Shown here one piece after another: positions 5,009-58,248 of a DNA stretch of 64,000 nucleotides; within the stretch, counting starts at the first letter, position 1, and every line of letters starts with the position of its first letter. The position numbers were made by a program, and so were the translations under genes. Origin of the DNA: Allodiplogaster sudhausi. Its lineage: Eukaryota; Nematoda; Chromadorea; Rhabditida; Diplogasteridae. The notes under the pieces were generated by a model that worked only from the letters and a program-made list of their open reading frames with translations, had not been told where the DNA came from and made no database searches. The stretch covers positions 2,501-66,500 of the forward strand of contig CALZFC010000081.1 of NCBI GenBank assembly GCA_945643635.1, given 5' to 3'.

Positions 5009-8000
5009 TTAATTAACCTCAAATTTCCCGCCTCCAGGCTGGACGGTGAGGGTAATCTTGTATAGAAGGGTCTTCTCAACGGGAACAAATGCTTCCACCA
5101 GTGGATTCTGGAACAGATTCATACATTTATTGTTATGGAATTTCTTTAGCATCCCAAACAGGAAAAAAATGCTGACCGCAGAGAGAAGGAGAGTAGAGCA
5201 TTTCTCAGTCAAATCGAACTTCTCGAGCTCTTCATTCATCATTCCCAACACGAACTCGCCCAGCAATGTTTCGATGAACGAGTCACTGCAATCCATTTCC
5301 ACCGTCTCCCCAATTACCAATAGGAAGAGAAGAGTCTTTGTGTCAGTAAAGTTGTCAGCACAATACACTAGAATATTTTCTTGATTAATTTTCTACGTAT
5401 GCAACACTGCCACACCTTTTTGTTAATATGAAAATTTTGACGAGAACTACAAACTTGATGGTTGTCATAGAAAAGTGACAAGGGCAGTAGTCGAAGGGAA
5501 TCGGCAAGGATTTGCAGTTGCGAGGAAGATTGGGATTGAGTTCTCGAAGGATGGAAGAGCCTTCGGAGGGTGCTGGGACTTGCACGAAGGAACGGTCGGA
5601 GAAGCTGGACAGGGGCTGCATCTCAAACACAACTCTCTATTACTACACAAGTATTTTGAAATGAACACTGAAATGCACATTCTGTCAAATCTTCCCATAA
5701 TAGAAAAATATGTTTAAATGAATGTTTTGAAGAAGAAGAACCTCTGCAATGTCGACGAAGGTTGCGTACAAGTCGTACATGGTGAGAAGTTGGCGGGAGT
5801 TTTTCTGGAGAATGGGAGAGAGAGAAGAGCGGAGAGAGCGAGGGACGACGAGATGAAGCATCGGGTTGTTCACTTCGTGCCGCCCCAGTCGGCTTTCTCG
5901 CTGCTGAACAACTCTCGACTTCATCAGCATTCAGTATTGTTATGTGCGTACAAAATTGCTATTGATGGCAAAACAGCTACCTTCCCGAAGCGTAGGCCGT
6001 GGTCGCCCATGAAAAAGACGAATGAATTGTCCAGCTGTAACAACACTTATTATATATGGCCTTTAAAAAATTATAGTAATCGAGGTCAACCTCAGCAAAG
6101 TTGTCATTGAAGAAGCCGTGGACATAAGGATCCGCATGGAAGATGCGATTGGGGTCGTCGTGTGAAAGATAAGACATCCACACAAGGCCGAACTTGCCGT
6201 CATCTTAATCACTTTGATAGATCAACTGAAAGAAGCAGTGAAAAACCTGGATAAGCAGAGAAGAACTGGCGGAGATAGTTGAGCAGAAGTGATGGTGTTC
6301 CATGCAATTCTGCTCACTCATTGTCTCCGCGAGCAGCTGGTCTTCTTTTGAGAAGAAGCGTAATTGAAATGGCCTGACGATTTTTATTTACATTTTTTTA
6401 ATATAAAAAAAAATACATGAAAAAAATCGAAAGAAGAGTGACTCGAAGCAATCATTAAAAGTCTTGCGAATCCGACTTGCCTCATGTAGTGAGTTGCTGG
6501 CTGCTGCTGGAATCCAGTGCAATTCGGCCAGTTGAACACGCCTCTGGCCCAGTCTTCTGCCATGAGAGTACGGTAGCCCATATCAGCGAAGCGCGATAAC
6601 AGAAATCCTTCTTAAATACATTCTTGCTTTAATGCGGATATCAAAAGGAATGTTGATGCCTTAAAATAAATGTGAAAACAAAATAAGAAAACAAGGGGCA
6701 CCAATTCCATCAAGGGGCTCTTTGCATGATTCTTCATATGGCCACTGCGACTTCAGAGATGGTAAACCGAAAATGCTCTTGTCAACTGAATACGCCCGAC
6801 GGCCTTCAAATAGATCTGTCTTTCTCTCTATCACGCACTCTTTCTCTCCTTTGTTCCTCTCCTTTCCCTTTCTCTTTCGTTCTCTCTCACCAAGAAGGAA
6901 GGCAGCTCCATTCGGTCTGCTGTTATCGCCGACTTTGTTCAGATGGCGGAAACGAATTGCCCCAAGCTGTTTCTCAAGAAACTCAACAGTCTTCGGAAAC
7001 GAGCTGGAAAATAGAGCTGTTAATAGTTTAATGTTTATCACTGAATTGAAGGAATTCTGACCGTATACTTTGTGTGTCGGCAACAGAATCAAAAAGAATA
7101 ATGTAGACATTTGGTTTCCATCGTGCTTGAGGCGTTGGAATCTTTTCATCAGACGAGCTCTGATTCCTCAAATTTCGAAGCTAAAAATTTACTTACAATA
7201 TTTTACAATTAAAAAGTGAATAAAAAGTAGGTACCTTGGGGCGGAATCTCGCGGAACTGGAACAACTTGCGTATGGAGAAAGTTGTAAGTGAATGAAGAC
7301 GAAGGAGGCAGAACACATCGAGATTCAACGATATCACAAGAGAAAGAAAAGGGAAGAGAGTGCCAGACGGAAGGAGAAAGCGTCAAGTCCGACGCCCCTT
7401 CTAGACATCTGCCGTGCAAAGAACACTTCTTATTCGTCTTATTCATTTTCACTAAAACATTATGTACATAGATGCAGAAAGACAACATCTCCATCGTTCT
7501 ACATACATATGTACATATGCGTACATATTTATTCGGTTTTAGTCCTTTCACAACAGAAATACAATATACTACCTTCCTTCACAGTAAAGACCCTCGGGAA
7601 CGGAGTCAGTTCGAACTTGCAAAAGTCCACTTGGATCGAGTTGCGTGTACGGCTTGAAGGAACGATTACAGCGCCTTGGCAAGAGACGAACGGGATTGCA
7701 TTGGAGACTTCGAAGAAAAATAGAGAAAGAGAGAAGGAGCGAGAGAGAGAAAGAGAGAGAGAAACAGAGAGAGCGAAGAAAATGAAAGGTTATAAAAACA
7801 AGGGAGCAATGTGGAAAGAAACTCTTCACAAAATTACAAAAGACCAAGATCTAACAATAAGGTTTTGCTCCTTCTTTCATAATAAAAGCGGAAGTGCTAA
7901 ACCACACGTTTCCACAATCTCCGAAAGTGAGGAGCAATTGATGCTAACTCAAAGCTCAAAAAAGAATTTAGAAAAAAAAAACTAACTCAAGCGGGTTGAA

Positions 8001-8417
8001 TGAAGGGTGGACAATGGAACGAATCTCATCATCCCATTCATCCAAATCACCAAGCGGGCAGTCATCAAAGATGGATTGATAGGAAGGAGCAGAAGAGGTC
8101 TCCAGTCTCGAAGGACGGAAAGAGGAAGGCGCCGTTTGGTCAAACAATTCATCTATATGCAAACTATTAGATTACTTACAATTCAACGATAAAGGTATAA
8201 ATAAAAGAAGGGGGAAGGCGACCATAATGATAAAAAAGAAAAATATGTCACCCGAATGGAAGGAGGCATTCTGTGTAGGTAGAAGAGGGAAGACAGCAGA
8301 GAAAGAACAGGAATATTCCTCTTTGCAAGGTCCGAAGACGTCGGAGTAGAAGAGAATGATGAGTAGATAGAGAAGAGCAGCGCCGGCAAGCACGTACAAG
8401 CAGAGAGGACTCGTCAT
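5009..8417 (-). CDS. DUF229 sulfatase-like membrane protein, copy B (about 15 exons, one frameshift)
   Basis: I reconstruct 15 exons: 8252-8417, 7987-8152, 7573-7707, 7235-7265, 7062-7180, 6891-7003, 6702-6785, 6481-6610, 6247-6373, 6091-6203, 5981-6034, 5742-5903, 5451-5621, 5177-5305, 5009-5107. Phases agree at every junction I checked except one. Exon 1 encodes a signal anchor (LYVLAGAALLYLLIILFYS), so this is probably a type II membrane protein with an extracellular or lumenal enzyme-like domain. Family motifs in order: CNPVRLLPRRC, KPNVYIILFDSV, HLNKVGDN, MAEDWARGVFNWPNCTGF, GLVWMSYLSHDDPN, FFMGDHGLRFG, TMYDLYATFVDI, IPFDYCPC. The start chosen is MTSPLCLY; an in-frame ATG 33 bp upstream is possible. 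Exon 6247-6373 enters in one frame (RPFQLRFF) but must leave in another (LLNYLRQFFSAYP), so one base is missing around 6290-6310: either a pseudogene or an assembly indel. The intron after MAEDW...HYMR starts with GC. Confidence 0.85.
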
Positions 8418-8938: not shown

Positions 8939-8980
<42 letters not shown>

Positions 8981-9590: not shown

Positions 9591-9639
<49 letters not shown>

Positions 9640-10700: not shown

Positions 10701-10734
<34 letters not shown>

Positions 10735-13740: not shown

Positions 13741-13776
<36 letters not shown>

Positions 13777-14021
13777 TCTCTGTCTCTCTCTCTCTCCTTC
13801 TCTGTCTCTCTCTCTCTTTGCCTGTCTCTCTCTCTCTCTCTCGTCATGCGCGACAACTCTGGCCGGAGTCTGTGGCAGGAGCCCCTCTGCTGGCCTCTGG
13901 CCGGCTCTTCTCTTTCTTCCCCATCCATCCATCGATTGCAATCCTTGGCTTGGCCGGCGCAGCTCCTCGGTTGCCATTGCAGGAGTCGAAGGATGGTGTG
14001 CTCTCTCTCTCTCTTTCTCTC

Positions 14022-14055
<34 letters not shown>

Positions 14056-14310: not shown

Positions 14311-14337
<27 letters not shown>

Positions 14338-25920: not shown

Positions 25921-26131
25921 TTCCTGGAAGAGCATAAGAAGAAGGTTGTGAAGGATGAGCAACAGCCGGTTGGGCAGTTTGACCCGCGCCCTCTACTCCG
26001 TCGTTGGCTTCGCTCTCAATTCAACTCTTCGGCTCGGTCTGAATGTCGGTCTCGTTCTCAGCATTGGCATGACGATCTACTCAGTCAGCTCCTATTCCAA
26101 GGAAGCTCTGAGGCAACGGAAAGAAGGTTTG
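25921..26131 (+). CDS. Candidate exon of the reticulon locus (two competing frames)
   Basis: An acceptor (GATCTGCAG) at 25918 precedes a GC-rich block ending near CGGAAAGAAG|GTTTGC. One frame gives FLEEHKKKVVKDEQQPVG. Another opens at ATG 25955 with MSNSRLGSLTRALYSVVG and continues into a hydrophobic helix (LGLNVGLVLSIGMTIYSV). The second frame has the stronger third-position GC bias and would need translation to start inside the exon. It could be an alternative first exon or a small membrane-protein ORF. Not resolved. Confidence 0.35.
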
Positions 26132-27798
26132 CACCAGACAGAATCTCGTCCTTTCTTGCGCTGCTCCCTTCCAAGGCGCTTCATTTCCATTCACTTCTCA
26201 TCGGAGCTTCTATTGTTTATGCGAACCAAGATTCTTCTTGGAATGAGTTCTTTTCTGTTGCACTGCTGCTTTTCTCAAAAATTGCCATATGAAATGAATC
26301 TTCATAGATTGATTGCTGTTTGTTCTCTTCGGGAATCACTAATATTGTTCCCAGTTAGAACTATCAGCTTTTATTCTCTCTCCCTCTCCTCTCTCACTCC
26401 CTCTCTCTCTCCCCACCCTCTCTCTCTCTCTCTTCCTCCCCTCCTTCTCTGTTTTCTCACTCACTTTGTCTCCCATCTTGAATGGCCTCTCCCTTCTCAT
26501 TCTTCTTTCACTCGCTGCGCGGATTTGTCGATTCTTCCCGACGCCTACATAAACATTAGCCATGAAAAGAGAAATCTTCTTGATTGAACGGAATTCGATT
26601 CGTCGCTTTATCCGCTCTCTCTCTCTCTCTTCTCTCTCTCTCCCTCTTTCTCTTTTCTTCTCGTTTTCCCTAAGAAGATATCCTCGATCGATGGAAAGAA
26701 AACTTGACTCTGACTGAGTGATGAATGAACAGTGAGATGGAATGGCTGTCTACAACTGCCCCTTGCAATCTGCAAAACTTCAAAGTTATTCTCATCTCAT
26801 ACACAGATCGAGGTTTATTTTGTGTACATGTCTGATCGTATTTTCTTTGTCTTTTCCTCTTTGAATGTTCGTTGTCTGTAGTTCTCTCTGTCGCCTCTCC
26901 CTCTCATCTTTTCAACGGTCAAGGTCTTTGAGAGAGAGAGAGAGAGAGAGAGCGAGATACACCTCCTATCCCAGGCTGTGCTGACCCATCTTCTGGAGTA
27001 TGCGCACAATTGATTTAAGATTCCAAGTTGGAGAGGCCGAAAGTGTTTAGTTATTGCACGTGAAAGAAAGCAAAGCTTGCTATTTATCTACTCATTTCCA
27101 GGTTCTATCTTGAATGAAAGATTGAAGGGAGAAGAGATTGGCGGCTCGTCAAAAGGCTGTGAAAGAGAGAGAGTAGCCGTGCTTCCTTTCTAGTCATACA
27201 CATGGCATCCGAGCTTGTGTTATTCCCCTACACGGTGGAGGCATTGAACTGCAAGTGAAGAGACATTGGGCACGGAGAAGAGAGCGCAGAGACAGAGTTA
27301 CAAGAAACAGAGAATGGGCTTACGAAACGCACTCGATGCAGGCAGAGATACAAACAGAAAGAGAGAGAGAGAGAGATAGAGAGACTTAGAGAGTGTTTGG
27401 TGCCTGCTCTAGCAGCGAGAGCGCAGACTGTAAGAGTTCTCGGCTTGCCTGTGAACTGTACACGTTGACGGCCCCTGTGCTATTCTCATTTGTATCAAGG
27501 AGAGAGCAGAGAGACAAGGAAAAGGAGGGAGTGTGATTACGTGGTTAGTGGAGAGAACGAGAGAAATGCAGAACCAGTGAAGGAACGCGATTGGGAGAGA
27601 CGATGAGAGTGAGAGAAGCAAAGTGAGAAGGGAGGGAGAGGCTGAGAGCAGTTCTTGGCCGGGGGCCGGAGAGGACAGAGAGACCTTCACTCACTCGCGT
27701 ATAGTTGACGGTGTCCTGGTTGGTCGTCGTCTTGGTTGAGTCCCTTCTCTCTCCCTGTCTACACTCTCCTCTCTCTCTCGTCATTATCAGAGATTCCA

Positions 27799-28386
27799 AT
27801 GGCTCAGCCCCGATTCCGCAAGGCAAAACAACAGGCGTATGTGCCGAGGGAGGACTTCATTGGCCAAGGTATGCACTCTTCAAGTCATTCCATTTCTGTC
27901 TTGCGTGGAGGTCGTTCCTGGATGTCTCTGATGGTGCCGTTTAAAATAGCTTCAATAGCTCGTGACGGATCCCTGGTCGATTGATCCACCCTCTATTATT
28001 ATTCCATTATTAAATTCAGTTGTGATTGATTAATTGTAGGATGAGTAATGTTGTGTTCTTCGCCCTTCATGGTGCAATGTTGCAATGTCACTGTATTGCC
28101 TTTACAGAAGGGGGGGGGTGTATGGACTGCAAGAGAAATGGGGTGGGGTAGAGCACGTGAATGGAGGATGACTGAAGAGAGAGAGAGAGAGCGATTTCAC
28201 TTTCTTCTTGCTTCTCAACTTCTCGATCCCTTAATCCTGTTCCGTTTATTATCCCCTCGTGAGATAACCCCTTTCCAGCACGGTGTTCACCGATCTCACC
28301 CTTCTTTATCTCCTTTTCTTTCATTTTGGGTATCTTTTCAATTGAATTGGGAATCTTTCTCCGTTGTTCATCTCTCGTGTCTTTGG

Positions 28387-28429
<43 letters not shown>

Positions 28430-28447
28430 CTCTCTCCTCTCTCTCTC

Positions 28448-28494
<47 letters not shown>

Positions 28495-30562
28495 AATCAG
28501 CCTCTCCCCCACTTTCATCGATATTCCCGCTTAGTCAACATATGATTGAACCGGGCCACGTAGGGAGCACTGAATGTCATTGAACGTTGACCGCAAATCT
28601 ACATAAACAGCAGAGTGAGGGGTGCAGGGAAAATCGTTTTATCTGACAGTGAGGTATAATTGGAAGATGTTCTCATTCTCCTCTTTCGCATATGGAGTCA
28701 TTTCACCTTCTTCTTCTTTGTTTCATCCCAGGGTTGGTTTAGCTGCGGCCTCGTTGACTGTAGTGCCTTGGGATATTTTGATACGATGTTTACAAAGACG
28801 TGCGTCATAGCAGGAGAGGAGCCCTTTTTTCTCCGTCTACATTTCGTAGCCCCTCTCATTTTATACCTCCTCTCTCTCTTCTCTCTTTCTCTCGCTCACA
28901 CGCCTCACTCTCTCGCTCTCTCCTTCCTTACACTTTGGCAGTATTGTTGATTGGCATGGCGACACGTTCTTGGTGTGAGAAGGGAGACTCTGTCCATCTC
29001 AGCTCGCGAGTGGCAACGCGAAATGAGAGAGAAGGTATCACAATGGCCGGCCCTTCTCTTCCCTCTCCTTATCTTTATCATTTATCTTATCCCACATTAA
29101 TGATTTGTGGCTTTCCTGACTTTCACGTTGTCTGAGGACAATAGAAAGTTTGCAGTCTTTATGATCTGATTGCAAACATCAGCGGTTAGTGCACTGCGAA
29201 TCTATTCAAAGGCCTGTCGCAGCAGTTTAGTTGAAATAGCTTTTGCGGAGAATAGATGGGTGTCATTGGCGAACAAAAGTGAGAGGTTTATTTTGCAAGT
29301 GAGAAGGAGTACACTTGATCTAATTAGTCTCCTTTGCAGTTCTCGATCTGATCTACTGGCGTGACCCGAAGAAGAGTGGGATCGCGTTGAGCGGAACACT
29401 TCTTGTTCTGTACATCCTCACCCAGTCAGTTCCCTCAGCTGGCTCTTCCCTCCCCTTTCTGATCAAGTTCTCATATTTTCTTACAGCTTCCCGATCATCT
29501 CCGTGATCTCTTACACGGCTCTTCTCGCTCTTGGGGGCACTCTTGGATTCCGCGTTCTCAAGCTTGTTGAGGCTCAGATCAAGAAGACTGAGGGAGGCAA
29601 TCCTTTCCAGGTGAGAAGCCCAACCATAGGGAGAACAGAAGATAAGGAAATGATGACTGTTTGTATGAATTACTGAATGAATCTCTTAAATTGCAGCCCT
29701 ACCTGGAGCAGCCCCTTGAATTGCCCGCTGACAAGGTACGCGAGCAGGTCGATGTCCTCATTGAGCATGGGCAGTGCTTGGCCAAGCAACTCAGGAGACT
29801 TTTCCTCGTCGAGAACATTGTCGACTCTGTCAAGGTGGGTAAGAGAGATAAAGAGGAGAGAGAGAAGGGGGGGGGAGAGAAGAAAGGGCGAAGTCTGACT
29901 GTCTTGAAGTGGCTCATAAGAGGGAGAGTGTTAACTTACAGTTCGGTGCTCTGCTGTGGTCGTTGACGTACGTGGGTGCGTGGTTCTCCGGCACTACTCT
30001 GATCTTCCTCATTGTCATCGGAATCTTCTCCATCCCCAAGGCTGGTCCTTTCTTATTTCTAATCCATTCCATTATTGGTCATTCCATTTCTATAGTCCCG
30101 AGTATCCTCTAGTTATTTTTTGTCTTCCTTCTAATCGTCCTATATTTGAAGCTGTACGAGACGTACCAAGAGCCGATTGATGCACAGCTAGAAGTGCTCT
30201 CCCAGCATATCAACACTGTCACGCAGATGTCAGCTAGGAAGATGGAGATAGAGAGTGAAAGGAGAGATAGAGAGCGAGAGAGGGAAACCAGAGATAGAGA
30301 GAGAGAGAGGAAACCAGAGATAGAGAGCGGAAGATAGAGAGGTATAGAAAAGAAGGGACGAAAAGAGAGATCAGATAACGAGTGAGGAAACGAGCTATAG
30401 AGAAAGAGAGAAGAAACGAGAGATAGAGCGAGAGAGGAAAACTAAAGATCTTTTCTTCGAGTCAACTTCGCTAGTAATTACTACTACTATTTATTTCCGA
30501 TTTCAGTGCGGAGGAAAAGCTGCCATTCCTGAAGCGCGTGGAGGCAGAGAAGAAGGAGCAGT

Positions 30563-30564
<2 letters not shown>
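27799..30564 (+). CDS. Reticulon (short isoform, complete)
   Basis: Seven exons total 651 bp (216 aa): 27799-27868, 29340-29424, 29487-29610, 29697-29834, 29942-30040, 30152-30228, 30507-30564. The start MAQPRFRKAKQQAY is a short isoform-specific exon. The rest is a reticulon-homology domain: VLDLIYWRDPKKSGIALSG opens it, the first hydrophobic hairpin spans LLVLYILTHFPIISVISYTA, a roughly 60-residue loop follows, the second hairpin is LLWSLTYVGAWFSGTTLIFL, and the C-terminus reads IPKLYETYQEPIDAQLEV. Reticulons shape tubular ER membranes through these wedge-like hairpins. The intron after IPK starts with GC (AAG|GCTGGT); only this junction keeps the frame. The C-terminal EAEKKEQ resembles a lysine-rich ER-retention tail. 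The 27799 exon implies an internal promoter within a gene that also has long 5' isoforms. Confidence 0.92.
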
Positions 30565-31212: not shown

Positions 31213-31808
31213 TTAGTCCTTCGGGCAAGATCCGATGTTATCACAAGCAGACGTTGCATTGCGCGACCACAAATGGACCTAAAGAGGGGATGAGTGGGTT
31301 GGATTGGGGAGGACAAGGGAACCTCGTTGAAGGCCTTGTCTGCGATAGCTTCGATGGCAGATCCACAGGACGAGGCACCCAGCAGCTCCTTCAGCTCATT
31401 CTCGCAGACCTGTCAGTTAAGGGACGGTCTCAGTCAACAGGGGAAAGCGGAAAAGAGAATGATCTTGCCGAGTAGAGAGTTTTGTTGAACATTGTGATGT
31501 AGTAGTCGTTGCCGAGTTGCTCGAGACTCTTCTGCAGGAGGAGTGTGCAGAATCGGCAAGAATCCGATTGCAAGGACAGCTCGGTCTTCAACGATTTCTC
31601 GCACTTTTAACTCTTCAAATTTACTTATCTCCAATTATTGAGTGGCTGTTGGTGGAATCGAGTCTGAATTCTGAGATGACCTTGTGAAGAAAAAGTGAAA
31701 TGAGATAAGAAAAAAGAAAAAAGATGAAGTATGAGAGAGAACCTCAGATGGAGAGACGACGACAGCGAGCAGCACGAAGAGGGCTCCGTTCAGGGCAGCC
31801 GCAGTCAT
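31213..31808 (-). CDS. Secreted single-domain saposin-like protein
   Basis: Four exons give 354 bp (117 aa): 31743-31808, 31469-31603, 31323-31409, 31213-31278. The signal peptide is MTAAALNGALFVLLAVVV. The saposin B pattern of six cysteines is present: DSCRFC (C1-C2), 27 residues to VCENELKELLGASSC (C3-C4), then TSACDNIGSCPKD at the C-terminus (C5-C6). NAT is a possible N-glycosylation site before C5. Saposin-like proteins bind or perturb lipids; in nematodes, single-domain secreted forms act in digestion and antibacterial defence. The C2-C3 spacing is only normal if intron 2 (31410-31468) uses a GC donor, TCG|GCAAGA; otherwise a 29-bp intron would be needed and the spacing is too long. A further open block at 31625-31680 does not fit the phases and is treated as intron. 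Confidence 0.8.
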
Positions 31809-32848: not shown

Positions 32849-33004
32849 ATGGCCGAATGGTCATCTCGGAGTTCGAAGACGACCAAATCTCGTTCAAGAG
32901 CGTTGCCCTCCCCTTACGACAAGCTCTCCCATGCTGAGCTCACAGCCATCATCGACCATCTGCTTCTCGGCACGATATCCTCTCTCCTCACCCATCATAT
33001 CCCT

Positions 33005-33048
<44 letters not shown>

Positions 33049-33571
33049 TTCCCTGGCTCTCCCTCTTTCCTGTCTCTCTCTCTCTCGCTCATTCTCTCGC
33101 TCTCCCTCTCCCTCTTTCCTGTCTCTCTCTCTCCATCTCGATCTCCAACTCACTACCCTTCTCTCTCTCTCTCTCTCTCTTATGCTTTAATGCGAAAAAC
33201 ATTTTTTGTTTTACAGTGAACGACTTGTCGAAGCCATCACTGACACACTGCATCAAGGAATTAGACATTCTCAGGTTCTCTCTCTCTTCCTTTCTCTCTC
33301 TCTCTCTTTCCATCGCACTCTCTGATACTTTCCTCTCTAAGGTTGATTGAAACAGCTCGGCCGATCCTCCTGCAGCAGCCAATGCTACTCGAGATCATGC
33401 CCCCCGTCCAGGTTGAGAAGGAGGGAAAGGCAGCCAAGAAGTGTCTTTCTTCAGGTGTGCGGAGACATCCACGGCCAGTACCCAGATCTGCTCAGAATGT
33501 TCAACAAGGTTGGCTGGCCGCATCAGAAGTCCTTCCTCTTCCTCGGAGACTACGTTGATCGTGGAAGGTGG

Positions 33572-33617
<46 letters not shown>

Positions 33618-35084
33618 GGAGTGAGAGAGAACAATCGAATCGTGTCAAAACATGGATTACAGCCAACAGCTGGAGACGATCCTCCTACTCACCGCGTACA
33701 AGGCCGCTTTGCCTGAGACCTTCTTCATGCTTCGCGGAAATCACGAGTGCGAGAACATCAATCGGGTTTGGAAGGGAAGCAGAGAGAGGAATGAGAGGGG
33801 TGGAGAGCATAGGAAAATAGGAAATGGAAGAAAGGGAGAGAATCGAGAACTTTCACTATGCAGGTGTACGGTTTCTACGATGAAGTCAAGCGTCGCTACT
33901 CCGACCGAGTTTTCCACTCCTTCCAGGTTCGTGTTCTATCATTCTCTCTCTTTCTCACTCTCACTCTCTCCTCTTCACTGTCCTTCTCTCTCACTCACCC
34001 TCACTCTCTACCCTTCACTGTCCTTCTCGCTTTCTCTCTCCCTCTCTTTCTATCTCTCTCTCAGCGTCTGTTCAACGTGCTCCCGCTGGCTGCTCTGATT
34101 GGCTCTCGCATCCTCTGCATGCACGGGGGCCTCTCCCCTGAGATGACTACGGAAAACTTCTCCTGGACGACTCTTCGCAACATTGCGGTGTCTTGATCAT
34201 CTCCACCAATGGATATTCTCAGAATGGATTGCAGAGACCAATGGAGCCAGAAGACAGGGGGCTGGTCACGGATCTTCTGTGGTCGGATCCCGACGAGAAA
34301 GCCACTGGATGGCATGAGAATGACAGGTGAGGGATGGAGAGTGGAAGCCATGTCTATCTCTTCCTGCAGAGGAATCTCCGTCATCTTCGGAGAGAACATC
34401 GTCCGCCAGTTCTGCGAAGACATGGAGATCGACCTCATTGCAAGGTACGAGTCTCATCAATCACTTTATATCTGAGGAGTGTTCTTCAGAGGCCATCAAG
34501 TGGTCATGGACGGCTACCAATTCTTCGCCGACCGCCACTTGGTCACGATCTTCAGCGCTCCCAAGTCAGTGAAGTTGTGGATGGAAGTGAACGGAAGACT
34601 TTGACTGCAGATACTGCGGCGAGTTCGACAACAACGCAGCGACGATGTATGTGGACGAGGAGATGTCGTGCACCTTCAAGGTTATTCCCTTTCCACTCTT
34701 CATTCTTCTCCTTCTCCCCTTTCAGATTCTCAAGCCGGTTACTACCAACGTGAGTGTGAAGAAGAGCAAAGGGAGACGACTCTCTGGCCCTGGCAGTGTC
34801 CGTCTTCTTCCCGCTCTCTATATATACCCCTCTCTTTCTATCCTCCTTTCTCATTCTATTCTCCTCTCTGTCTCTTCCTCCTCACTACAATTATCGCCTT
34901 CTCTCTATCTCTACTCTGTACCCCCCCCCCCTCTTTCTCCCTCTGTCTCCTGTCACAGATTTCGCATCTCTCTCTCTCCCTACCCTCTCTATTCCTCTCT
35001 CTTCCTCTCCTCACTCTCAACATCTCTCACTCCAGTCAGTTTCAGATGCGTGCTATTCGTCGTCGTCAGATTCTGCCGCAGTAG
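32849..35084 (+). CDS. PP1-type serine/threonine protein phosphatase catalytic subunit (divergent)
   Basis: Thirteen exons total 1026 bp (341 aa), in frame throughout: 32849-32969, 33217-33274, 33342-33411, 33455-33567, 33663-33765, 33864-33926, 34065-34187, 34235-34326, 34370-34444, 34490-34564, 34611-34680, 34726-34749, 35046-35084. All PPP-family metal and catalytic motifs are present: [49 protein letters not shown] and YCGEFDN. Length and order match PP1, with a Ser/Arg-rich N-terminus ([17 protein letters not shown]) and a basic tail ([12 protein letters not shown]). Differences from typical PP1 include SAPK for SAPN before YCGEFDN and TTENF in the segment after the HGG motif. This suggests a lineage-expanded PP1 paralogue, as worms have in the germ line. 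Intron 1 needs a GC donor (CTCG|GCACGA). Several later introns are only 43-46 bp. Confidence 0.92.
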
Positions 35085-42604: not shown

Positions 42605-45600
42605 ATGTCCTCTTCTCCGGTTGACTTCGCCCACTTTTGTGGATTCGATGTCAATGCGACGTCAAACACTGAAAGGTTCATCTTTTTCATGGGAGGCCTG
42701 CGTTTGTTTCTTACCTTTTTAAAAACCTTTTTTTACCTTTATAGTCAGTCTTTCTCAGATATATTTACAACTCGTCGTCTCTAACCCTTTTGCCATGCGC
42801 GGAGCTGGCATTCTCGACCCTTCTTTCCATTCCTCTTCTCTTCTTCACTGTCATCAACATGTGCTTTGTTTCTGTCAGCTTCTTCGTTCTTATGTTCGGC
42901 AGATCATATCGAAACCGTCTGTTTTCTGTCACTTGAAGAGATGCAAGTCGTATTTAGGCAATATTTCCTCGGTACGATCGCTGGTCCACAGTGTACTTGA
43001 CACAGACAACGCGTCTCGGCGTTTCCATCGCTACTGTCCTTCTATTCTTCATCGCATTGATTCTCTCAAGTTCTTCTCCACTTTACGATCTCACCACTCC
43101 GCTGCTTCTTCAATACTTTGTGCTCGCTTTAATTTGGATTGTCTACAGCGCACTCTGGATGTGGTCCTTGCAGTGCTTAAGGTACTTTACCATTAGACAT
43201 CAGGTTCATTATAGCCTAGGACTACCTTCCTTTTTTCCCTTTAATCACTGTCCCTTTAATTTCTTAGAATGAATTGAAAAATGCGCATGGTCAGTATCTA
43301 TTCCTTTTTTTAGCTGGTCTCGCTCACTTTCTCTCTGGTTGTCGTATTTCTTCGCTGTCTCTTCTCTGTTGGTAATCATGATGCAGCGCCACATACAATT
43401 CGGAATCTACGACCCACGCACATTTATCATTGCTGCTATTGTGTCATTGCAGGTATATGTTGACCATTAATTCGAAGTAGTTGTTCTTCGTCAATTCTGG
43501 GGTTAAGCTTAATTATTTTCAGTTTGTCGAGCTCTCCGGCCTTATTGTTGAAAATCATGCAAAGAGGTACGATATTTTTGTGGTGCGCCTTGAATTTTTT
43601 TTTAAATTGTTTCTTTGAGACACGACACTTCTCAGCGGCTTGACGAAGAAGTTGATTTGAGAGGAGGAGGGGATGAAACAGCAAACGTATTCTCCAAGGC
43701 ATTCTTCCTTTGGACTAATTCTCTGATTGAGAAAGGCTCTCGCAGACAACTGAATTCGGTTTGTCCATGCGTTTGCCTCTTCTCCGGGTTGCCTATTTCT
43801 TGATGTTTAGGTTGAAGACGTTTTCGAGTTGGGAAGTTCCTTGGAAGTCGAGAGAATAGAGCGTGAAATGGTTGAAAATACACCGACCTACTTCTCCGAT
43901 GCTACCCATTTCACTTTACTTAGGTTATGCACTATTTTATTTCACTTTCACGTGACTTTTTTTTAAACCTTCTAATAATATTCAAACATGAATGTATAGA
44001 TCGCTACTGAGCACGTTTGGGGTGTCGTTCTTCGCATTGGCAATTCCTCGTTTCTTCTCGGATGCCTTTACTTTGGCCAGCCCACTCATGCTTCATTTCT
44101 TCGTCAATTCACTCGAGGACGATACTTTTCAGGTTCTTTTCTTATAATGATGAAGATGCCAATCCTACGAATTGCAGGAGACGAGTGTTCAATGGGCTGC
44201 TTCCATGGTTCTCTGTGCACTCCTTGCTGCTGTCTTCTCTGCTCACTTCACTTTCTATGTCCAGAAGATCTCTCTCAAGGTACGGTAGATTGTGGTCCAT
44301 CATGTCACATGTCTATCCCTCTTAAGGTGCGTGCGGCAACAGTGACATCGATTTATGATAAGCTTACTCGAGTTCCCCTTTTTCGACTTGGTGGCCATTC
44401 CTCTGGTTTGTGTTTCCATTCTTCCTATTCTGAATTGTATCATGAGTTAATTGAAGGTCGCATAATGAACTTTGTGTCGAGTGACGTGGATCGGATAGTG
44501 AACGTGTGCGGTTCTTTCCACGCTTTCTGGAGTATGCCTGTTCAGTTGCTCATCGCTCTCTTTCTTCTCTACAGAGAGGTTTATTTGTTTCCTGTTCGAC
44601 ATTATTGTTAGCAATGTAAAAAAGTCCCAACCGTAAATTCTGCCGCATTCCCTAGGATAACGTTAAAAAAATGCTGCCTTTTTGCCCAACTTTTTAAACA
44701 TTCACGACCTTCCCTCTTTTTTCCTCTTCTTTGGATTGGTGGGCCCTTTCTTGATTTTCAAAATGAGTAACACACGTTGTTTTCTTCATAAACTCATTAA
44801 TGTTCAGATTGGATTGGCATTCCTGGCTGGGCTCGCCGCTGCTTTGATTCTCATTCCATTCAACAAGATCATTACGAATCTCATTGGAAAGCAGTCAGAA
44901 TTGATGATGAACTCGAAAGATCAGCGAGCGAAGGTTTCTTTCTTACTTTTGGAGTACTGTTGTGTATACCGCACCTGTAATTTAGTAATTATTGTGTCTG
45001 AGCATAAAAAAAAATGTTTGAGCTGATTACGGAGACAATGCAAGGAATGCGAACAGTGAAGATGAGTGGATGGGAGGACTTCTTCGAGAGGAGAATCTCT
45101 CAACTGCGAGAGAAGGAACTGCACCATCTCAAGGTGGCCAGCCATTCTTCGCCCACTCCCCTATTTCCTCTCTGCACAGGCTCGGAAGTACCTGGACGCA
45201 GTGTGCGTGTATCTCTGGGCGTCTGCCCCCCTCCTCATCACACTCTCCATCCTTGTCTCCTACACTCTCATTCTTCACGAGAAGATAACAGCAGCCAAGG
45301 TTAGCTCTTCCATTCACTCGCTTTCAGATATTCAATGCTCTTGTCTCTTAGATTTCACCACTCTTGTTTCTTAGATGTTCACCACCCTTGTCTCTTAGAT
45401 GTTCACCACCCTTGTCTCTTAGATGTTCACCACCCTTGTCTCTTAGATGTTCACCGCCCTTGTCTCTTAGATGTTCACCACCCTTGTCTCTTAGATGTTC
45501 ACCATTCTTGTCTTTTAGATGTTCACTACTCTTGCCCTGGTGAACATTCTGATGATGCCTCTGAATGCCTTCCCGTGGGTGTTGAATGGAATGGTGGAGG

Positions 45601-48600
45601 CCTTCGTATCCCTCCGCCGTCTGGATGCTTTCTTCGTTCTCCACGACTTGGAGTACTCTCGTCTCTACAGTCTCAGTCAACGTCAGTTATTCTCCATTCA
45701 GTTCTAAGAATGCAAGACTGGGAATTTAGGGGACGAAGAGCTTCTAGTGCTGGAGGACGTGTCCTTTGCGTGGAAGTCGAATGAAGCAGAGAAGGAGAGC
45801 GAGGTACACCCTCTCTCTCTCTCACTCTGCCTCTCTCTCTCTCTCGCTCTGATCATTCTCCCCTTGCAGATGGTGCCTACAGTAGTGGGAGTGAGTCTGC
45901 GAGGCCATTCCGGTACCGTGGTGGGCGTGGCTGGTCCAGTGGGAAGCGGCAAGACTACTTTGCTTCTAGGAATCCTGGGTTAGTGTGTGGTGAATGGTTC
46001 AGTTGAAAGAGAGGAGTGATTTTCAGGAGAAGCGGGTCGTACGAGTGGATCTCTCCTCCTGAGACAGCGCTCCGTGGATGAGGGGATCGCCTACGTGGCC
46101 CAGAGTGTCTGGCTCTCCCGCGGCTCCGTCCGGGCCAACATCCTTGCGGGTCGCCCCTTCGACAAGACCAGATATGATAAGATCCTCCATGCCACTTGCC
46201 TGCTTCATGATCTCAAGGTTCTGAGCTGAATTCTCAGAAGACATCCAATCTCAACTGAATGAAGGCTTTCCCTGGTGGAGATGAGTACGAGATCAGCGAG
46301 AATGGGGCGACTCTCTCGGGTGGACAGAGGGTTCGAGTTGCTCTCGCCAGGGCTCTCTATCAGGTCTCTTTATTCTGCCACTCTTTTTTCTTACGATATA
46401 AAAATGAGATATATTTTAAAGAAGTTATATATTCGCTTCTTTTCTTTAACAGATGACTTGGACTGACCATGGCTAATTGAGGATAACACAGTTTATCTGC
46501 TGGATGATCCATTCGCCTCTCTGGATCGGAAAGTGGCTGAACACATCTGGAAGGAAGCCGTCGAGGGGTTGCTGAAGGTTGGTTAAAGGAGGGGAGAAGA
46601 CAAACGATCGCTTGTCTCTGCAGGCTTCTGGGAAGTTGGTGATAGTAGCGAGTCATGATGGGGGGCTGCTGAGGAGGGCGGATTCCATCGTCCTTCTCTC
46701 TTCCACTGGCACAGTCATCAAGTCACTCCTTTGTTCCTCTTAGATAGTCTTTCTGAACTAGAGGCATTCATCTCGCATTGTCTACTTTCTCACATGCAGC
46801 ATTTGTTGATTTGGATAAAAAGAGTGAAGTGTAAATGATTTTCGATATTGTTATTTTTTTTTTAAGAAATGCCAGCCCGGATGAAGTAGCGACTGATTCG
46901 ATGGAGCTGCAGAGCGAAGAAGAACAAGTGGAAGAAGGCGAGTTGCTGCTGCCAGAATACGTGGTTCCCGACGAAGAGGAGAAGCAGGTTCCTTGCAGCT
47001 TCTCTTCAGTCACAGTAGCCTCTCCCCTCTCCCTTAAAGGAGGGCGCAGTGCGTGTTTCCGTGTACGCCTCGTACGCGGCTGCGACGGGGGCTGCTCTCG
47101 TCTCTGCCATCCTCGCTGCCATCCTTGCCATGCAGGCATTCAAGAACTGTGCTGATTGGTGGCTCACCAGGCACGTCGTCTTCCTTTCTCTTCTACTCTC
47201 TTGTTTCTTGCTTAAGATGGACGAACGGGCAGAGCAACACCACCACTCAGACTCTGCAGGAACATCTTTTTACTGAAAGGCTACCGAAGTAATCTTTGTG
47301 GATATCATTTAGTTTGTTTAAGACAATGCACTAATTATTATATCTAAATTTTCAGTCCAATATACTCTTCTGAAGAATATGACAGATCGATTTACTTCTT
47401 GAAAGTGTATACCATGATGGCAGGTTAGCATGTCATTGCAACAATTCAACCCCTACTCTGGTTTGACACTTATGATTCGTTCACGTTGACTATCCTCCTC
47501 CCTTAGAGGAAATGGGAAAAGTTGGAAAAAAATGTGAGGGTGTCGGAAAAGGAGGGTTCTTTTGTGCAGGAGCGAATACTTTCTTCACTCTTGCACGAGC
47601 TTTTCTCTTTGCGAAGGGAGGAATTGTCGCGGCCTCCCGACTTCATTCGAGGCTTCTTTCCAAGCTTCTTTCGGTCCGATATATCTTACACAGCTTGATG
47701 CTCTTCGTTTCATACATGTATGAGTTGCAGGCTCCCGTTTCGTGGTGGGACCGTACTCCTGCCGGCCGAGTTATCAATCGAATGTGCGCGGATGTATACA
47801 CAGTTGACGATTCTCTTCCATTCCAGGTGTTTCTCGTTTGTATGGATGTCTTTAATCTCTTGACCTGTCTAAGATGAACATTCTCTTCGCCTCTGTGTTC
47901 AATCTGCTTGGTTCGATGGTCGTGACTCTTCTCGGCCTCCCTCTCCTCGCTCCTTTCTTCTTCATTCTTCTCTCTCTCTACTATGTCATTCAACGAAGAT
48001 ATCGGTTTGTCTTATAGTTTCTATTATTTCATGCCCTTTCTTTTAAACCATAAGGACCTATTTAGTTTAAACCGTCTTTGCAAATGTAAATATTGACTCG
48101 TTGCTTTAGGCAGACGACGGTGGAGTTGAAGCGTCTGTCGTCTCTGTCTCTCTCTCCTCTCTACTCCCTCCTTGCCGACACCGTCAATGGACTGGCCACG
48201 ATCCGTGCTCATCGCTTAGTGGATAAGTGAGTATCTCCCTCTCCCTTTACTCCTCCCTCTCCTCCCCTCTTCTCAGTTGCTGCCATGACCTTCGTCTGCG
48301 AGTGCGAAGAGTGTTGCGTGCGTACTTCTCTTCCCTGGCAGCGTCTTGCTGGCTGTCCGTCCGTCTCTCTGCCATTGCTGTCTCTGTTGTCTTCTTCGTC
48401 TCCGTCGCTGCGATCGTCCAGCATCGCCTTGGATTCGTGGACACTGGTTTCATTTGCTCTTCTTCCTTCTTGTGCTTCATGGATGAGAGTTGGAGGCCTG
48501 GTTGGCTTGGCTGTCACGTATGCCCTCACGATGACTTCTCTGCTAAATGGTCTACTCGGCTCATTCATTGAAACTGAAAAGGAAATGGTCAGTTATTTCA

Positions 48601-49779
48601 GAGACATCATTTATTATCGTTTACTTGATAAAATTCGTAAAATATTACGGCGCGGCACTTCTCTTTGTAGGTTAGCGTCGAGCGTATTGATGAGTATGTG
48701 AAAGACGTGCCAACTGAAGCGGACGAGGGAGAAGGAGAGGTGCGAGAGATAAAGGGATAGAGAGAATATGCAGAGAGGAAGAGAGATTGTGTTGAGATGA
48801 AGGAAGAACTGCGCGGCAGGATCGAGCTGGTTGGAGTGAGTGCCCGCTATGACCGCGCCTTGCCCCTCGCCATCACGGGAGTCTCCGCACGAATCGAAGC
48901 CGGCCAGAAGGTTGCTGTGATTGGCAGGACTGGCAGTGGCAAGAGCACCGTCTTCCAGGTCGGCAGCTAAGCAGTTTGATGGTTGAAGCCGCCCTCTTCC
49001 CATTCTAGGCTCTGCTGCGTGCCGTGACACTGGAGACAGGCGAGATTCGGGTGGATGGCATCGACATCTCCACTCTTCCCCTTCGCTCTCTCCGCCGTCT
49101 CTTCGGCATTGTACCCCAGTCTCCATTCCTCTTCTCTGGTTGGTCAACCCCCCCTTCTTCTCTCCCCCAGAGATGTCTACTTGCAGGGACACTGGCTGAG
49201 AATCTACAAGTGGACAACCTCCGACCTGACAGACAAGCTCTGGCTAATGTCGTCCGAGTTGCTCAGCTGGGTTAGAATGCCGTCTTGAATATCTTGTCTG
49301 GCTGATCAATCTACATTTCATTCCAGATAAATTACTGGAACGAATTGGCGGGTTGGATGGGGAGATCGAGGAGGGAGGAAGGAATCTTTCTACAGGGGAA
49401 AAGCAGATAGTTTCCATCTGCAGAGTGTTGCTGGCCAAACCAAAGGTTAGGGGGAAGGGGGTAGAATGAAGAGAGAAGTGTGCGGTTGTAGATAGTGCTG
49501 GTGGACGAAGCGACTGCTCACCTGGATGGAGAAAGTCGTCGTCGTCTCTTCTCTCTCATCTCTAACTGTCTGCCTCTCTGCACTCTCCTCTTTATTGTAC
49601 ACCGTCCGCACTCTCTCGCCGATTTCGATTTAGGTAGGTGGAGTATGAATGAACCGTCTCTTCCTTATGAATACCGTATACTTTGAGTGATGAGAATGGA
49701 TTCGGGGCGGCTAATCAGCTGCTGTCCTCCCACTGAAGATGATCTCCGTCTTCTCGATGATTCTGTCCAGCATTCATAA
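42605..49779 (+). CDS. ABCC/MRP-type ABC transporter, full transporter with two ATPase domains
   Basis: A many-exon gene starts MSSSPVDFAHFCGFDVNA and ends LLDDSVQHS. An N-terminal membrane domain (TMD0-like: FSTLLSIPLLFFTVINMCF; GVSIATVLLFFIALILSS) precedes the first core membrane domain (FSKAFFLWTNSLIEKGSRR; MLHFFVNSLEDDTF; MFTTLALVNILMMPLNAFPW). NBD1 (about 45870-46735) has Walker A GPVGSGKTT, signature LSGGQRVRVALARALY, Walker B VYLLDDPFASLD and H-loop VASHD. A second membrane domain (47540-48590; WWDRTPAGRVINRMCADV) leads to NBD2 (48800-49779) with Walker A GRTGSGKST, signature LSTGEKQIVSICRVLL, Walker B IVLVDEATAHLD and H-loop IVHR. Both sites look intact, apart from the aspartate in place of the catalytic glutamate in NBD1, which is usual for this family. 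ABCC proteins export organic anions and conjugates. The intron at 45300-45518 holds a 24-bp array of duplicated 3' splice sites. Confidence 0.92.
45354..45521 (+). repeat. 24-bp minisatellite built from the gene's own 3' splice site
   Basis: Seven 24-bp units, each containing TTGTCTCTTAG|ATGTTCACC, lie directly before the true exon start at 45519 (TTTTAG|ATGTTCACTACT). The unit is a copy of the intron end plus the first bases of the exon. Each upstream acceptor opens the correct frame but reads MFTTLVS and then TAG, so only the last acceptor gives a full protein. Confidence 0.9.
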
Positions 49780-53088: not shown

Positions 53089-55054
53089 CATATATGACGA
53101 TGCCAACTAAAAAAACGGTCGTTTTTGCGTTTTCGAGAGATTTGTGACATGTGTGGGTGTACTAAACTGCTTATTTTTTTGAGCATCTTTATTCACGTAC
53201 AAAAGTGTGCAGAAATCGCACTGAAAAATGAGCACAAATGTACATGTATTAAACTGCTCAAAATCATTTTGAAAAGTGAGCAAAAATATACGCGTACAAA
53301 TGTGCTCATAAAACGGTGTGAAAAATGAGCAGAAAAGTACATGTACTAAAGTGCTCATAAAACCATAGAAGAAAGTGAGCACAAATATACGCGTACAAAA
53401 GTGTGCAGAAAATCTAGGCCAGAAAGTACGCGTACAAAAGTGCTCAAAATTTTTGCGCAAGAAAATACGCGTACAAAAGTGCTCAAAATTTTTGCGCAAG
53501 AAAATACGCGCACAAAAGTGCTCAAAATTTTTGGACAAAAAGGGACGCATATGAAATGGCTAAAATGTTTTAGGGGAAAAAACCAAGATGCAAATTCTTA
53601 AGGAGATAGAATGAAAAATGTCGTCAAAAAATATACATCGAAAATAAAATGAAAGAGACAGGAATAAAAACAGAAAACTACAGTAAACTTTCAGTGCACT
53701 ATAAATTCATTTGCAACGAATATTCTGCTTTTTACCCGACCCAGCTTTTATTTCGTATTTTCGTGAATGTGTTTTGATTTACTTTTCTTTCAGATCAGAT
53801 GAGTTTAGTCGAGGTCGTCCCTGACTCAACGCGCTCGTCATCCACCGAACGGCGACGTCATTAGCGTGCTCGCCTGTCCGAGAATTCGCTTTGGCAGGTG
53901 TGTTTTTTTTTCCTGCTGATTTTTACCACGATAACTTCTTACGATTATATTTCTTGTTTCACAAATGTTAAATCACATCAAGTTTTGTTATGAAATGCCA
54001 TTCCATTAAAAAATGTTGTAATTGGTTGATGTTTAGATCGAATGGTTGCTACGAGGATGCTTGCCCCATTCATGTGCGCCAAGAGACTGTGACTCTTACG
54101 AACGCAAACACATTGTTAAGGTATTATTTTCATTTTGAATTTGAATTTAGACTTTTTTCTTGTGCATCCATCGATGCTTATAATTAGTCTTTTTATTTTC
54201 CGTACTTTGCGCGGAATAAGTGAAATCTGGGTGTGAAATGTTTCCGAGAATGTTCAAAATAGGGGGAGGGGGTTGCGTAACCTTTTAAACCCGGAGCAGG
54301 TTGTAGTGGTCTCCTCTGATGACGGCTTTCGAGTCGGCCTGTTCGACCTCCTCAACGCGTGCATCTCCTCGAGTTACAACTCCTCGTCACTCTCGGCGCC
54401 ATGCCTGCACCGCCCCGTAGTGGATCAGTCAGTATCCATTTTTTCTATTTAAATCCTGTTAATTTCATTTTATTTTGATGTATATTTTTGACGACATTTT
54501 TCATTCTATCTCCTTAAAAATTTGCAGCTGGTTTTTCCCAAAAAAAAAATTGAGCCATTTAATACGCGTAGTTTTTTATCCAAAAAATTTGAGCACTTTT
54601 GTACGCGTATTTTCTTGCGCAAAATTTTTTAGCACTTTTGTACGCGTATTTTCTTGCCCAAAATTTTTTAGCACTTTTGTACGCGTATTTTCTTGCGCAA
54701 AATTTTTTAGCACTTTTGTACGCGTATTTTCTTGCGCAAAAATTTTTGGCACTTTTGTACGCGTATATTCGTGCTCATTTTTATGATGAATTTTGAGCAA
54801 TTTAGTTCATGTACTTTTCTGCTCATTTTTTAGTCTGATTACTGTACACATTTATACGCGTACTTTCATGCTCATTTTCCAAAATGATTTATGCGCATGT
54901 TAGTACATGTATTTTTATGTGCAAATTTTTTTGCACACTTTTGTACGTGAATAAAGATGCTCAAAAAAATATGCAGTTTAATACACCCACACATGTCACA
55001 AATCTCTCGAAAACGCAAAACGACCGTTTTTTTTAGTTGGCATCGTCATATATG
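53089..55054. mobile_element. Foldback-type element with long inverted repeats made of short tandem units
   Basis: The two ends are inverted copies of CATATATGACGATGCCAAC. The arms are about 500-570 bp. Near the outside they match almost exactly; further in they consist of diverged tandem units of about 38 bp carrying GTACGCGTATTTTCTTGCGC or its complement, roughly three on the left (53425-53545) and five on the right (54585-54780). The 850-bp interior is GC-richer and holds exon-like blocks. No transposase. Structure matches foldback (FB/Galileo-like) transposons; no clear target-site duplication. Confidence 0.85.
53860..54423 (+). CDS. Exon-like blocks inside the foldback element
   Basis: Three blocks can be joined in phase 0: about 53865-53897 (RARLSENSLWQ), 54037-54120 (IEWLLRGCLPHSCAPRDC to ERKHIVK) and about 54301-54423 (VVVSSDDGFRVGLFDLLN to LHRPVVDQ). 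Each has AG before and two have a GT-type donor after. The last block recalls a WD-repeat strand (SSDDG), but that is weak. They may be fragments captured from a host gene, or the remains of an element gene. No start or stop located. Confidence 0.3.
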
Positions 55055-55384: not shown

Positions 55385-55923
55385 AAGAGAATAAAGCATG
55401 TTTATGTGTTCTATGTTGAATGAGCTTACATCTATGGAAGAGACTTGGAAGAATTAATAAAGACAAGCAGTGCATGGATGGAAACAGAATATATGTAAAA
55501 GGAAGAAGAAAAGCAGTAAACATACAAGGAACAAATGCATTCGAGCAGCATGATGAATGGAATGTATAGTCTTGCTACGTATCTCTTCTGCGTGTATTTT
55601 GGTGTGTTTACTACAGTAACTCTCTAGCCTCGGTTAACCCTACCATCATCCTCACACTAATGTAACTCTCCTCCCCACATGAATGTTCATACATTCATGT
55701 GGGGAGGAAAGAGATCGATGTGTGTATTATTTTCGTTTTCAGCGAGTCAGAAATCCCCTGAATAGCTAGTGTAATTGTGAAATCAAAAAAAAAGAAAAAA
55801 AATTTATATAGGCACATGCTAGATTTACATAACGACTTTCACTCTCTTTTTCTGGGCGTTCTCGCCGCCTCTTTCCTCTTTCCAAGTGCAAAATCGAGGA
55901 GAGGCTCTGCTGCTCTCTATCCT
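55385..55923. repeat. 540-bp direct repeat, copy 2
   Basis: Direct copy of 52480-53020, in the same orientation, with the same internal hairpin at 55670-55707. Sequence identity drops abruptly at both ends of the unit. Confidence 0.95.
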
Positions 55924-56705: not shown

Positions 56706-58248
56706 ATGGAGATCGACAACTTCTTCCTCCACTTGGATATCGACGAACCTAATACAAAAGTTGGTTTATCAAAATATAACTATGATATCAGGGTCCTTGT
56801 TTCAGGAGAGTTGTCCCACCTTTTCACTGACTGACTACCAGGCAGAAATACACGAGAATGCGTGGTTCCTTGACGAGAAGTTGGCAGAGAATCCTTTCCA
56901 CGACAGGAGGTGGTGCCAGTCCTTTTTCTTCCTCAGTACAAGGAATTCCAGATTCGCTGTATATAGTAACAGTATTAAGTATGACTCCTTATCCATTTCA
57001 GAGAACTACAGTATCACAAGGCTGCCTACTTTCATCTCCTGGGCAACTCCCAGCGGGCATTTGAGGTTCTTTGAGTCCACTAGCGAGGATTATTCTTCTT
57101 TTCCATTGCTAGATGGTGCTCTTTTTAACAAGTGGCAAACGATGCATGAATTGGAATGAAATTCTTGTGCAGGAGCTGTCTCGACTTGCCGAGGATGGGA
57201 CGGCGGAGCAGAAAGGCTGTCACCGTTTTGCTCTGGCCGATGCTCTCATCGGCCAAGCACTTGAGGCTCGTTCCATTCACTTCCCTTTACTCTTGCCATA
57301 CGCAACACTCAATGGGGGAAGTCCATTCAACTTTTTTTTTTAATTCTTCTTCTTCAGCTAGAAAGCCTCGACTCGCACCTGTTGAGAAAGCTGTTGAATT
57401 CTCACCGAGATGCGGTGAGCACCTTCGGAGACCAAATCAGCCATCTTTTAACCTCAGCCAGGTTCTCTAGGCTGCAGTTATTCTTTCGAATGAATTGAGT
57501 ATTTTAGAGCATACGCACGTCTTCATGAAGATGCTTCCCTCCTGCGTGCTCTTTCTCTTCTCTGCTCTCTCTGCCACCTTCCTGGCCATTGGCACCTCTT
57601 CGCTCACATTTCTAATGACAAGGTTTGACTTCGCATTTCTTCAGTTGAGATAACTTATTCCATTATTGTCTCTCCTTTCAAGCGAGGTCGCTGTCTGTGT
57701 CTCGGAAGTGAAGTGTTCGCCATTGAATTGGCAGAGGAGCAGTTGTCGCTCTGCCATGGATTCGTGCGAAGAAAGGCAGGGAATGATCTGCAAGAGTGGA
57801 AGAAGAGACTTTCGCAACGATTCTCCCCCGAAGAGATCGAAAATGCACGGCGCGAGATGAAACACAGGAATCTTCCGAAGAAGGTTCGTTCTTCATTTGC
57901 TATAACTGCAAGTAGTGACTGGTTATCTGAAAATTATTAAACAGTATTTCTTATATCTAATACAACTACCAATAACAATACATTTCTAATGAAGAAAAGG
58001 CAGTTAGTGTTCTGATATAAAAATGGTTTTTAACATGGTTTTCATCTGGTCAGAATGACGAGAACGACGATTTGGCCAAAGCAGCCCATGCTTGTTGCTC
58101 CAGTCAAAGTCCGCTGAGCAGCCAGGGAGAGCAGAGCATAGTGGACTGCTTCTTGGCAAGGCACCGTTGGATGCTCCAAGGCATGGAAGAACTAGTCCAG
58201 CTTGCCTCTACCCACTCTTCCCTTCTGGCGCCCTCTGCTTACAATTAG
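56706..58248 (+). CDS. Helical repeat protein, possibly C8orf76-like TPR protein
   Basis: Start MEIDNFFLHLDIDEP. Joined exons: 56706 to about 56758; 56807 on (FSLTDYQAEIHENAWFLDE); about 57010-57065 (LQYHKAAYFHLLGNSQRAFE); 57171-57265 (ELSRLAEDGTAEQKGCHRF, ADALIGQALE); 57358-57414 (LESLDSHLLRKLLNSHRDA); about 57511-57622 (ARLHEDASLLRALSLLCSLC, WHLFAHISN); about 57682-57882 (CLGSEVFAIELAEEQLSLC, RFSPEEIENARREMKHR); and 58055-58248 (LAKAAHACCSSQSPLSSQ to LLAPSAYN). Paired helices of TPR type and the order of segments recall the vertebrate C8orf76 family, whose function is not established, but I could not align it. The join LIGQALE|LESLDSH needs a GC donor (GAG|GCTCGT). The join between 57414 and 57511 is unresolved. 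Confidence 0.55.

Follow-up and report, generated by a model that had tools for sequence, protein, structure and literature searches.

In a 64,000-nucleotide window of the diplogastrid nematode Allodiplogaster sudhausi (assembly GCA_945643635.1, contig CALZFC010000081.1, positions 2,501 to 66,500; "the window" below is this whole stretch), three introns begin with GC and end with AG. They lie in a reticulon gene, in a gene of the DUF229 family (copy B) and in an ABCC10/MRP7-like gene, and at each of them the homologous proteins demand an intron end where no GT stands. These are probably real U2-type GC-AG introns in a species whose 5′ splice sites are generally degenerate. A preliminary description of the window had held that five genes need a GC donor. 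GC dinucleotides are present at all five of its positions, and in reticulon (30041) and DUF229 copy B (6480) GC is clearly preferred with every homolog used, whereas in the saposin-like, PP1-like and TPR-like genes it is favoured only by splice-site score. The ABCC10 intron had been missed.

Donors were tested with a purpose-written protein-to-genome spliced aligner that allows affine gaps and frameshifts and chooses the donor dinucleotide freely. The homologs were hand-picked, mostly closest relatives, and comprised eight of the 120 matches listed for ABCC10 (239 found), six of the 120 listed for reticulon (353 found), seven of 72 for DUF229 copy B and six of the same 72 for copy A, two of 93 Protein Data Bank (PDB) sequences for PP1 and one of two for the CDK5RAP3-like gene. 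In a neutral test all 15 non-GT dinucleotides carried equal cost, and in a forbidding test a single GC donor was barred while the shift of the alignment and its loss in half-bits were recorded. Beyond the three sites called firm here and one further site in ABCC10 (45786), no non-GT donor was chosen with all homologs in the neutral test, and this includes GA and GG; at a lower cost, a non-GT donor was chosen at 43456 with two of four homologs and at 6704 with three of four. Barring the GC donor at the firm sites left 20 of 21 alignments still without a GT.

The reticulon intron (30041..30151, plus strand; AAG|GCTGGT...TGAAG|C, phase 0) was given a GC donor with all six homologs and in three of three neutral runs. 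Its splice joins FSIPK|LYETYQ, a junction that is contiguous in the five homologous proteins examined, and the aligner adds 18 codons when limited to GT. The DUF229 copy B intron (6374..6480, minus strand; GAG|GCAAGT...GTCAG|G, phase 2) was read as GC with seven of seven homologs and in four of four neutral runs. A GT-only alignment loses 28, 44 and 38 half-bits with the homologs P0241, P0242 and P0245, respectively, and with P0243 it is 51 half-bits lower, but two further non-GT picks are also lost there. With either of these two donors barred, every alignment (six at 30041, seven at 6480) moves to a neighbouring non-GT dinucleotide and none to GT, at a cost of 12–21 half-bits. The ABCC10 intron (47171..47216, plus strand; CAG|GCACGT...TTAAG|A, phase 2, WWLT|R|W) was assigned a GC donor with eight of eight homologs and in four of four neutral runs. 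Limited to GT, the alignments with four Pristionchus proteins drop 4–5 residues at this point, and with the donor barred six of the eight homologs move to a neighbouring non-GT site with a loss of 18–21 half-bits. A GC donor joined to an AG acceptor, and preferred by homologs over GT, is thus found at 30041, 6480 and 47171, and on this evidence all three would be classed as U2-type GC-AG introns.

At two further sites a GC donor is probable: the splice-site score leans towards it but falls short of proof. The first is the PP1-like intron at 32970..33216 (plus strand; TCG|GCACGA...TACAG|T, phase 1), where use of the GC donor lifts the Pfam STPPase_N match to 35.1 bits, from 26.7 if GT is used and 27.8 if exon 1 is omitted. 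By splice score the advantage over the best GT path, which runs through a CT repeat, is no more than about 2 bits, and the spliced alignment with human PP1 began downstream of 32970 and gave no support for the donor. A possible U12-type donor, ATATCCTC 5 nucleotides within the intron, was looked at as well, the pattern for that class being AT-AC or GT-AG with the donor [A/G]TATCCTT in the right phase. Read by hand as an AT-AC intron whose 3′ end is the AC next to the AG in use, the one acceptor considered, this candidate breaks the frame. The second is the saposin-like intron at 31410..31468 (minus strand; TCG|GCAAGA...GACAG|G, phase 0), which scores 1.8 bits; the best one found among GT paths that keep the frame with an intron of at least 30 nucleotides has −4.5, a gap of about 6 bits. 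A 29-nucleotide GT-AG reading made by hand keeps the frame too, but it is below the 43-nucleotide minimum of the counted introns. Pfam gave no match for either version of the saposin-like protein. In the TPR-like gene, for which no Pfam family rose above the cut-off, the intron at 57266..57357 (plus strand; GAG|GCTCGT...TTCAG|C, phase 0) is a possible case: GC scores 9.3 bits, and of the GT paths that keep the frame the best has −3.7 and one with a 4-nucleotide shift −5.7, so that GC is favoured and not required, contrary to what had been proposed.

Several other GC candidates were set aside. ABCC10 45786 was retained in four of four neutral runs, but its dinucleotide differs by homolog (GC in four, AA in two, TC and GA in one each of eight) and a GT at 45804 (GAG|GTACAC) can be used at the price of no more than six inserted residues; the intron was entered as GT, though it may be GC. 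CDK5RAP3 61103 slides by four bases to CAG|GTCTGA with an identical mRNA and was likewise entered as GT. GC picks at ABCC10 47280 (three of eight homologs) and at DUF229 copy B 7252 (one of seven) were rejected in favour of the GT that the other homologs prefer. P0007, which joins both first exons of reticulon, gave three odd introns, two of them GC (26980 and 27213), in a part with no clear homology, and these were left uncounted, as were further ab initio GC donors in models without homology. Among ab initio donors, 37060 in the gene at 36003–37631 has a frame-keeping GT 12 nucleotides further on, as read by hand.

Spliced alignment gave 76 intron clusters, 70 with GT, five with GC and one with GA. 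Five clusters were dropped (CDK5RAP3 61103 and 60894, ABCC10 45786, the unresolved DUF229 copy A 452, and reticulon 29035, seen with one of six homologs) and five introns were added by hand (ABCC10 45804, DUF229 copy B 5176, CDK5RAP3 61099, and reticulon 26127 and 27869), so that the final set again holds 76. Counted introns have a minimum length of 43 and a median of 68 nucleotides. The resolved set consists of 73 GT and three GC donors, a firm rate of 3.9% [95% confidence interval (CI) 0.8–11.1]. Adding PP1 gives 4/77, adding saposin 5/80, and adding TPR 6/88, or 6.8% (CI 2.5–14.3), where the set of 88 includes PP1 32970, three saposin introns (the first three of seven in an ab initio model) and eight TPR introns. 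The rate of about 9% given in the preliminary description was therefore too high. Its claim that GC-AG introns are unusually frequent stands in part: the firm count is above the 0.6–1% usual among nematodes (P = 0.011 against 0.6%, 0.023 against 0.8% and 0.041 against 1%), but the interval is wide and takes in the 3.46% of Globodera rostochiensis.

The published rates set the scale for this count; they are taken from the parts of the cited papers covered here. C. elegans has 0.6% GC-AG introns and other rhabditines about 0.6–0.8% (PMC5906903), Meloidogyne graminicola has 0.45% (PMC7593179), and GT-AG makes up 98.3% of animal introns (PMC7072748). The cyst nematodes G. rostochiensis, whose 3.46% was called the highest for any nematode in 2016, and G. 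pallida, with 3.53%, are higher (PMC4901422). The rate in the window looks raised, yet it lies inside this known nematode range. The likeness to Globodera is a raised nematode rate from which that of the window is not distinguishable, although Globodera is a different lineage and its rate is RNA-supported, whereas ours comes from sequence alone (PMC4901422). With C. elegans and other rhabditines the window shares GC donors with AG acceptors, which are several times commoner in this one window (PMC5906903). GC-AG introns reach about 22% in the alga Micromonas pusilla and 39.6% in Aureococcus anophagefferens, but such algal genomes have 66–70% G+C (PMC3033335) against 44% in the window, in which animal genes are present. 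The copepod Eurytemora affinis is another animal with relaxed donors, but there the departures are GA and GG donors at about 12% (PMC5714493), none of which was chosen with all homologs here.

The GT donors are a better reason to look further than the GC rate; their looseness is the more unusual of the two. In the 73 GT donors position −2 is A in 54, −1 is G in 61, +5 is G in 43 and +6 is T in 36, a consensus of AG|GT..GT, against the general (A/C)AG|GU(A/G)AGU (PMC3488318). At +3 (A 15, C 15, G 12, T 31) and +4 (A 26, C 17, G 12, T 18) the composition does not differ from that of the intron interior (P = 0.44 and 0.13), the information amounts to 0.08 and 0.02 bits, and +5 is strongly different (P = 1.6e-15). 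Most of the 73 donors were placed using a matrix derived from the first 39, and these 39, placed by homology with a GT preference and no position matrix, have an identical profile. Both GT and GC donors of Globodera read CAGG[T/C]AAGT (PMC4901422), whereas the GT donors of the window have no preference at +3 or +4; measured against the cyst-nematode GT consensus CAGGTAAGT, they carry A or G at +3 in 27 of 73, and none of the 73 matches at more than 7 of 9 positions. The number of consensus matches per donor is held within a narrow spread, with a variance of 0.76 against 1.44 in shuffled columns (P = 0.00035). In 34 ABCC10 donors placed without the matrix the spread is narrow as well (P = 0.0087), and donors with more matches on the exon side tend to have fewer on the intron side (Spearman −0.43). 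The 74 acceptors are loose too (CAG 41, AAG 14, TAG 10, GAG 9); for two of the GAG the homologs do not agree.

With position +2 left aside, agreement with the U1 consensus covers 7, 5 and 7 of eight positions in the three firm GC donors; the GT donors have a mean of 4.6 and a maximum of 6. GC exceeds GT in U1 match with a one-sided P of 0.009 when the firm three are compared, 0.046 with five sites and 0.040 with all six. With TPR omitted, A at +3 is found in four of five GC donors and 14 of 71 GT donors (P = 0.010), while G at +5, in five of five against 41 of 71, does not differ significantly (P = 0.15). It looks as though the GC donors show the usual compensation elsewhere in the site. The view that the GC sites themselves are weak is thus unsupported, because on average their agreement with the U1 consensus exceeds that of the GT donors; two of the three firm ones agree with U1 at more positions than any GT donor. 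This speaks against the point in the preliminary description that the sites depart from the consensus. What survives of the proposed relaxed U1 requirement comes from the GT donors, which are nearly without information at +3 and +4, and not from the GC sites.

On the reading of real GC-AG introns among degenerate donors, ordinary U1 and U6 machinery would read donors mainly through positions −2, −1, +1, +2, +5 and +6. Total pairing would be about equal in every intron, within a narrow range to which +3 and +4 contribute little, and a change of T to C at +2 would be tolerated where the remaining positions pair well. GC donors would then make up a few percent of introns, a level known from cyst nematodes. 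A changed U1 would not be required, given the precedent of Micromonas pusilla, in which GC-AG introns are abundant without a change of the U1 5′ end (PMC3033335).

Several points weigh against this reading. Three firm sites are few, and one 64-kb window gives a window rate and not a genome-wide one; against the 3.46% of G. rostochiensis, 3/76 is indistinguishable (P = 0.49). The reticulon donor, AAG|GCTGGT, is not especially strong. The U2-type assignment is weak at 47171 because two of the eight homologs lose little when the donor is barred: those of Mesorhabditis and Toxocara give up only 4 half-bits, the latter going to GT. Finally, DUF229 copy B has a frameshift near 6279–6291 with seven of seven homologs, in the exon that follows the GC intron (minus strand); contrary to the earlier view, the frame of the family is therefore not continuous through this gene. 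A more general weak point is the comparison with other nematodes, for which informative +3 and +4 positions are taken from the general donor consensus (PMC3488318).

One alternative is a wider version of the preferred reading. It holds that a diplogastrid lineage has undergone a general relaxation of the 5′ splice site, with +3 and +4 uninformative, a donor of AG|GY..GT, GC at several percent of introns, loose acceptors and maybe a changed U1 or U1 protein; we regard this as possible, though somewhat less likely than not.

A narrower alternative concerns DUF229 copy B alone. The gene could be a pseudogene, or an indel in the assembly could account for the frameshift, and 6480 counts for less because of these two possibilities; in a gene with a frameshift, the step from GT to GC could be decay, unrelated to the other GC donors. 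That explanation is doubtful, since the aligned part has no stop elsewhere, the 13 other introns are GT-AG in the alignment with P0241, and the GC donor itself, GAG|GCAAGT, is a strong one.

Chance clustering, with an ordinary species rate of about 1% and a window that happens to hold three or more such introns, is unlikely. It draws on the modest P of 0.041 for the firm count, on an interval that starts at 0.8% and on a built-in selection, the window having been reported since its sites were noticed. With the two probable sites, however, 5/80 departs from 1% at P = 0.0013, and the GT donors of the genes examined are degenerate, which would favour tolerance of GC.

A species-specific change in the 5′ splice site machinery (the U1 5′ end, U1C/LUC7 or U6), of which the GC donors would be one sign, appears quite unlikely. 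It would suit the absence of a detectable preference at +3 and +4 and the narrow variance in match number described above, but the average pairing of the GC donors with a standard U1 is better, and not worse, than that of the GT donors, G at +5 is retained, and the algal precedent has a standard U1 5′ end. A modelling artefact of the kind that gave the first Heterorhabditis bacteriophora annotation 8.87% GC-AG introns, cut to 0.79% on re-annotation (PMC5906903), is very improbable even though TPR has GT paths and ABCC10 45786 and CDK5RAP3 61103 seemed GC yet read well as GT, since the three firm sites hold with every homolog and every neutral run, GT-only alignments drop or add residues, and homology, not a gene finder alone, fixed the positions of the genes.

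The ABCC10/MRP7-like and reticulon genes point to a diplogastrid outside Pristionchus. The ABCC10/MRP7-like gene (42605..49779, plus strand), placed by spliced alignment with Pristionchus proteins and with ends from an ab initio model, has 37 introns and neither stop nor frameshift in its aligned part. Its protein is 59–60% identical to four Pristionchus proteins, which are 84–89% identical among themselves, 55.5% to that of Ancylostoma and 52.5% to that of Mesorhabditis belari. In a tree of 18 ABCC10 proteins, with Pristionchus the only other diplogastrids included, it groups as the sister of the four Pristionchus proteins, with support of 100/100 and on a long end branch. The gene is very intron-dense, and 22 of its 37 introns are shorter than 60 nucleotides. 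About eight copies of a 24-nucleotide unit (45340–45534) run across the 3′ end of one intron and the start of the next exon, and because of this repeat several acceptor-like sites stand upstream of the used acceptor at 45518. The reticulon gene (25964..30564, plus strand), aligned with P0002 and P0004, has two alternative first exons (25964–26126 and 27799–27868) that correspond to two kinds of N-terminus in other nematodes, and its closest match, among the best 120 of 353, is from Pristionchus mayeri at 73%.

DUF229 copy B (4540..8417, minus strand) has 14 introns and one frameshift, with alignment from 8072 to 4540 and its start from an ab initio model, while copy A, whose aligned part (1..1608, minus strand) runs off the window, has four resolved GT introns and one unresolved. 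The PP1-like phosphatase gene (32849..34737, plus strand) has 10 GT introns within the aligned part 33228–34737, and the CDK5RAP3-like gene (approximate limits 58500..61400, minus strand; Pfam PF05600 at 142 bits and a PDB match) contributed four counted introns. No tRNA was found within the window, nor any Rfam family at gathering scores, hence no U1 gene among the window matches. A large imperfect inverted repeat at 53089–55054, with arms of up to 210 nucleotides that are 71–93% complementary and 39-nucleotide tandem repeats in both arms, is possibly a non-autonomous mobile element; a 46-nucleotide near-palindrome flanks the region twice, at 52761–52806 and 55666–55711. Two tandem duplications (13746–14332 and 61408–61940, periods of 279 and 272 nucleotides, 99% matches) look recent, and (CT)n/(GA)n microsatellites are plentiful between genes and in introns throughout the window.

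Neither GC-AG introns nor donor degeneracy in Pristionchus or other diplogastrids appeared in the titles or abstract openings among the matches listed, and five papers on these nematodes (PMC12981502, PMC6643871, PMC3032686, PMC11563456, PMC7986045) do not treat the topic in the parts covered. If the pattern holds genome-wide, conserved genes would come out broken in diplogastrid gene sets whose donor models allow GT alone or were trained on C. elegans. If it is true, A. sudhausi would also offer an animal near the model Pristionchus for studying how loose U1 pairing can be with short introns still found.

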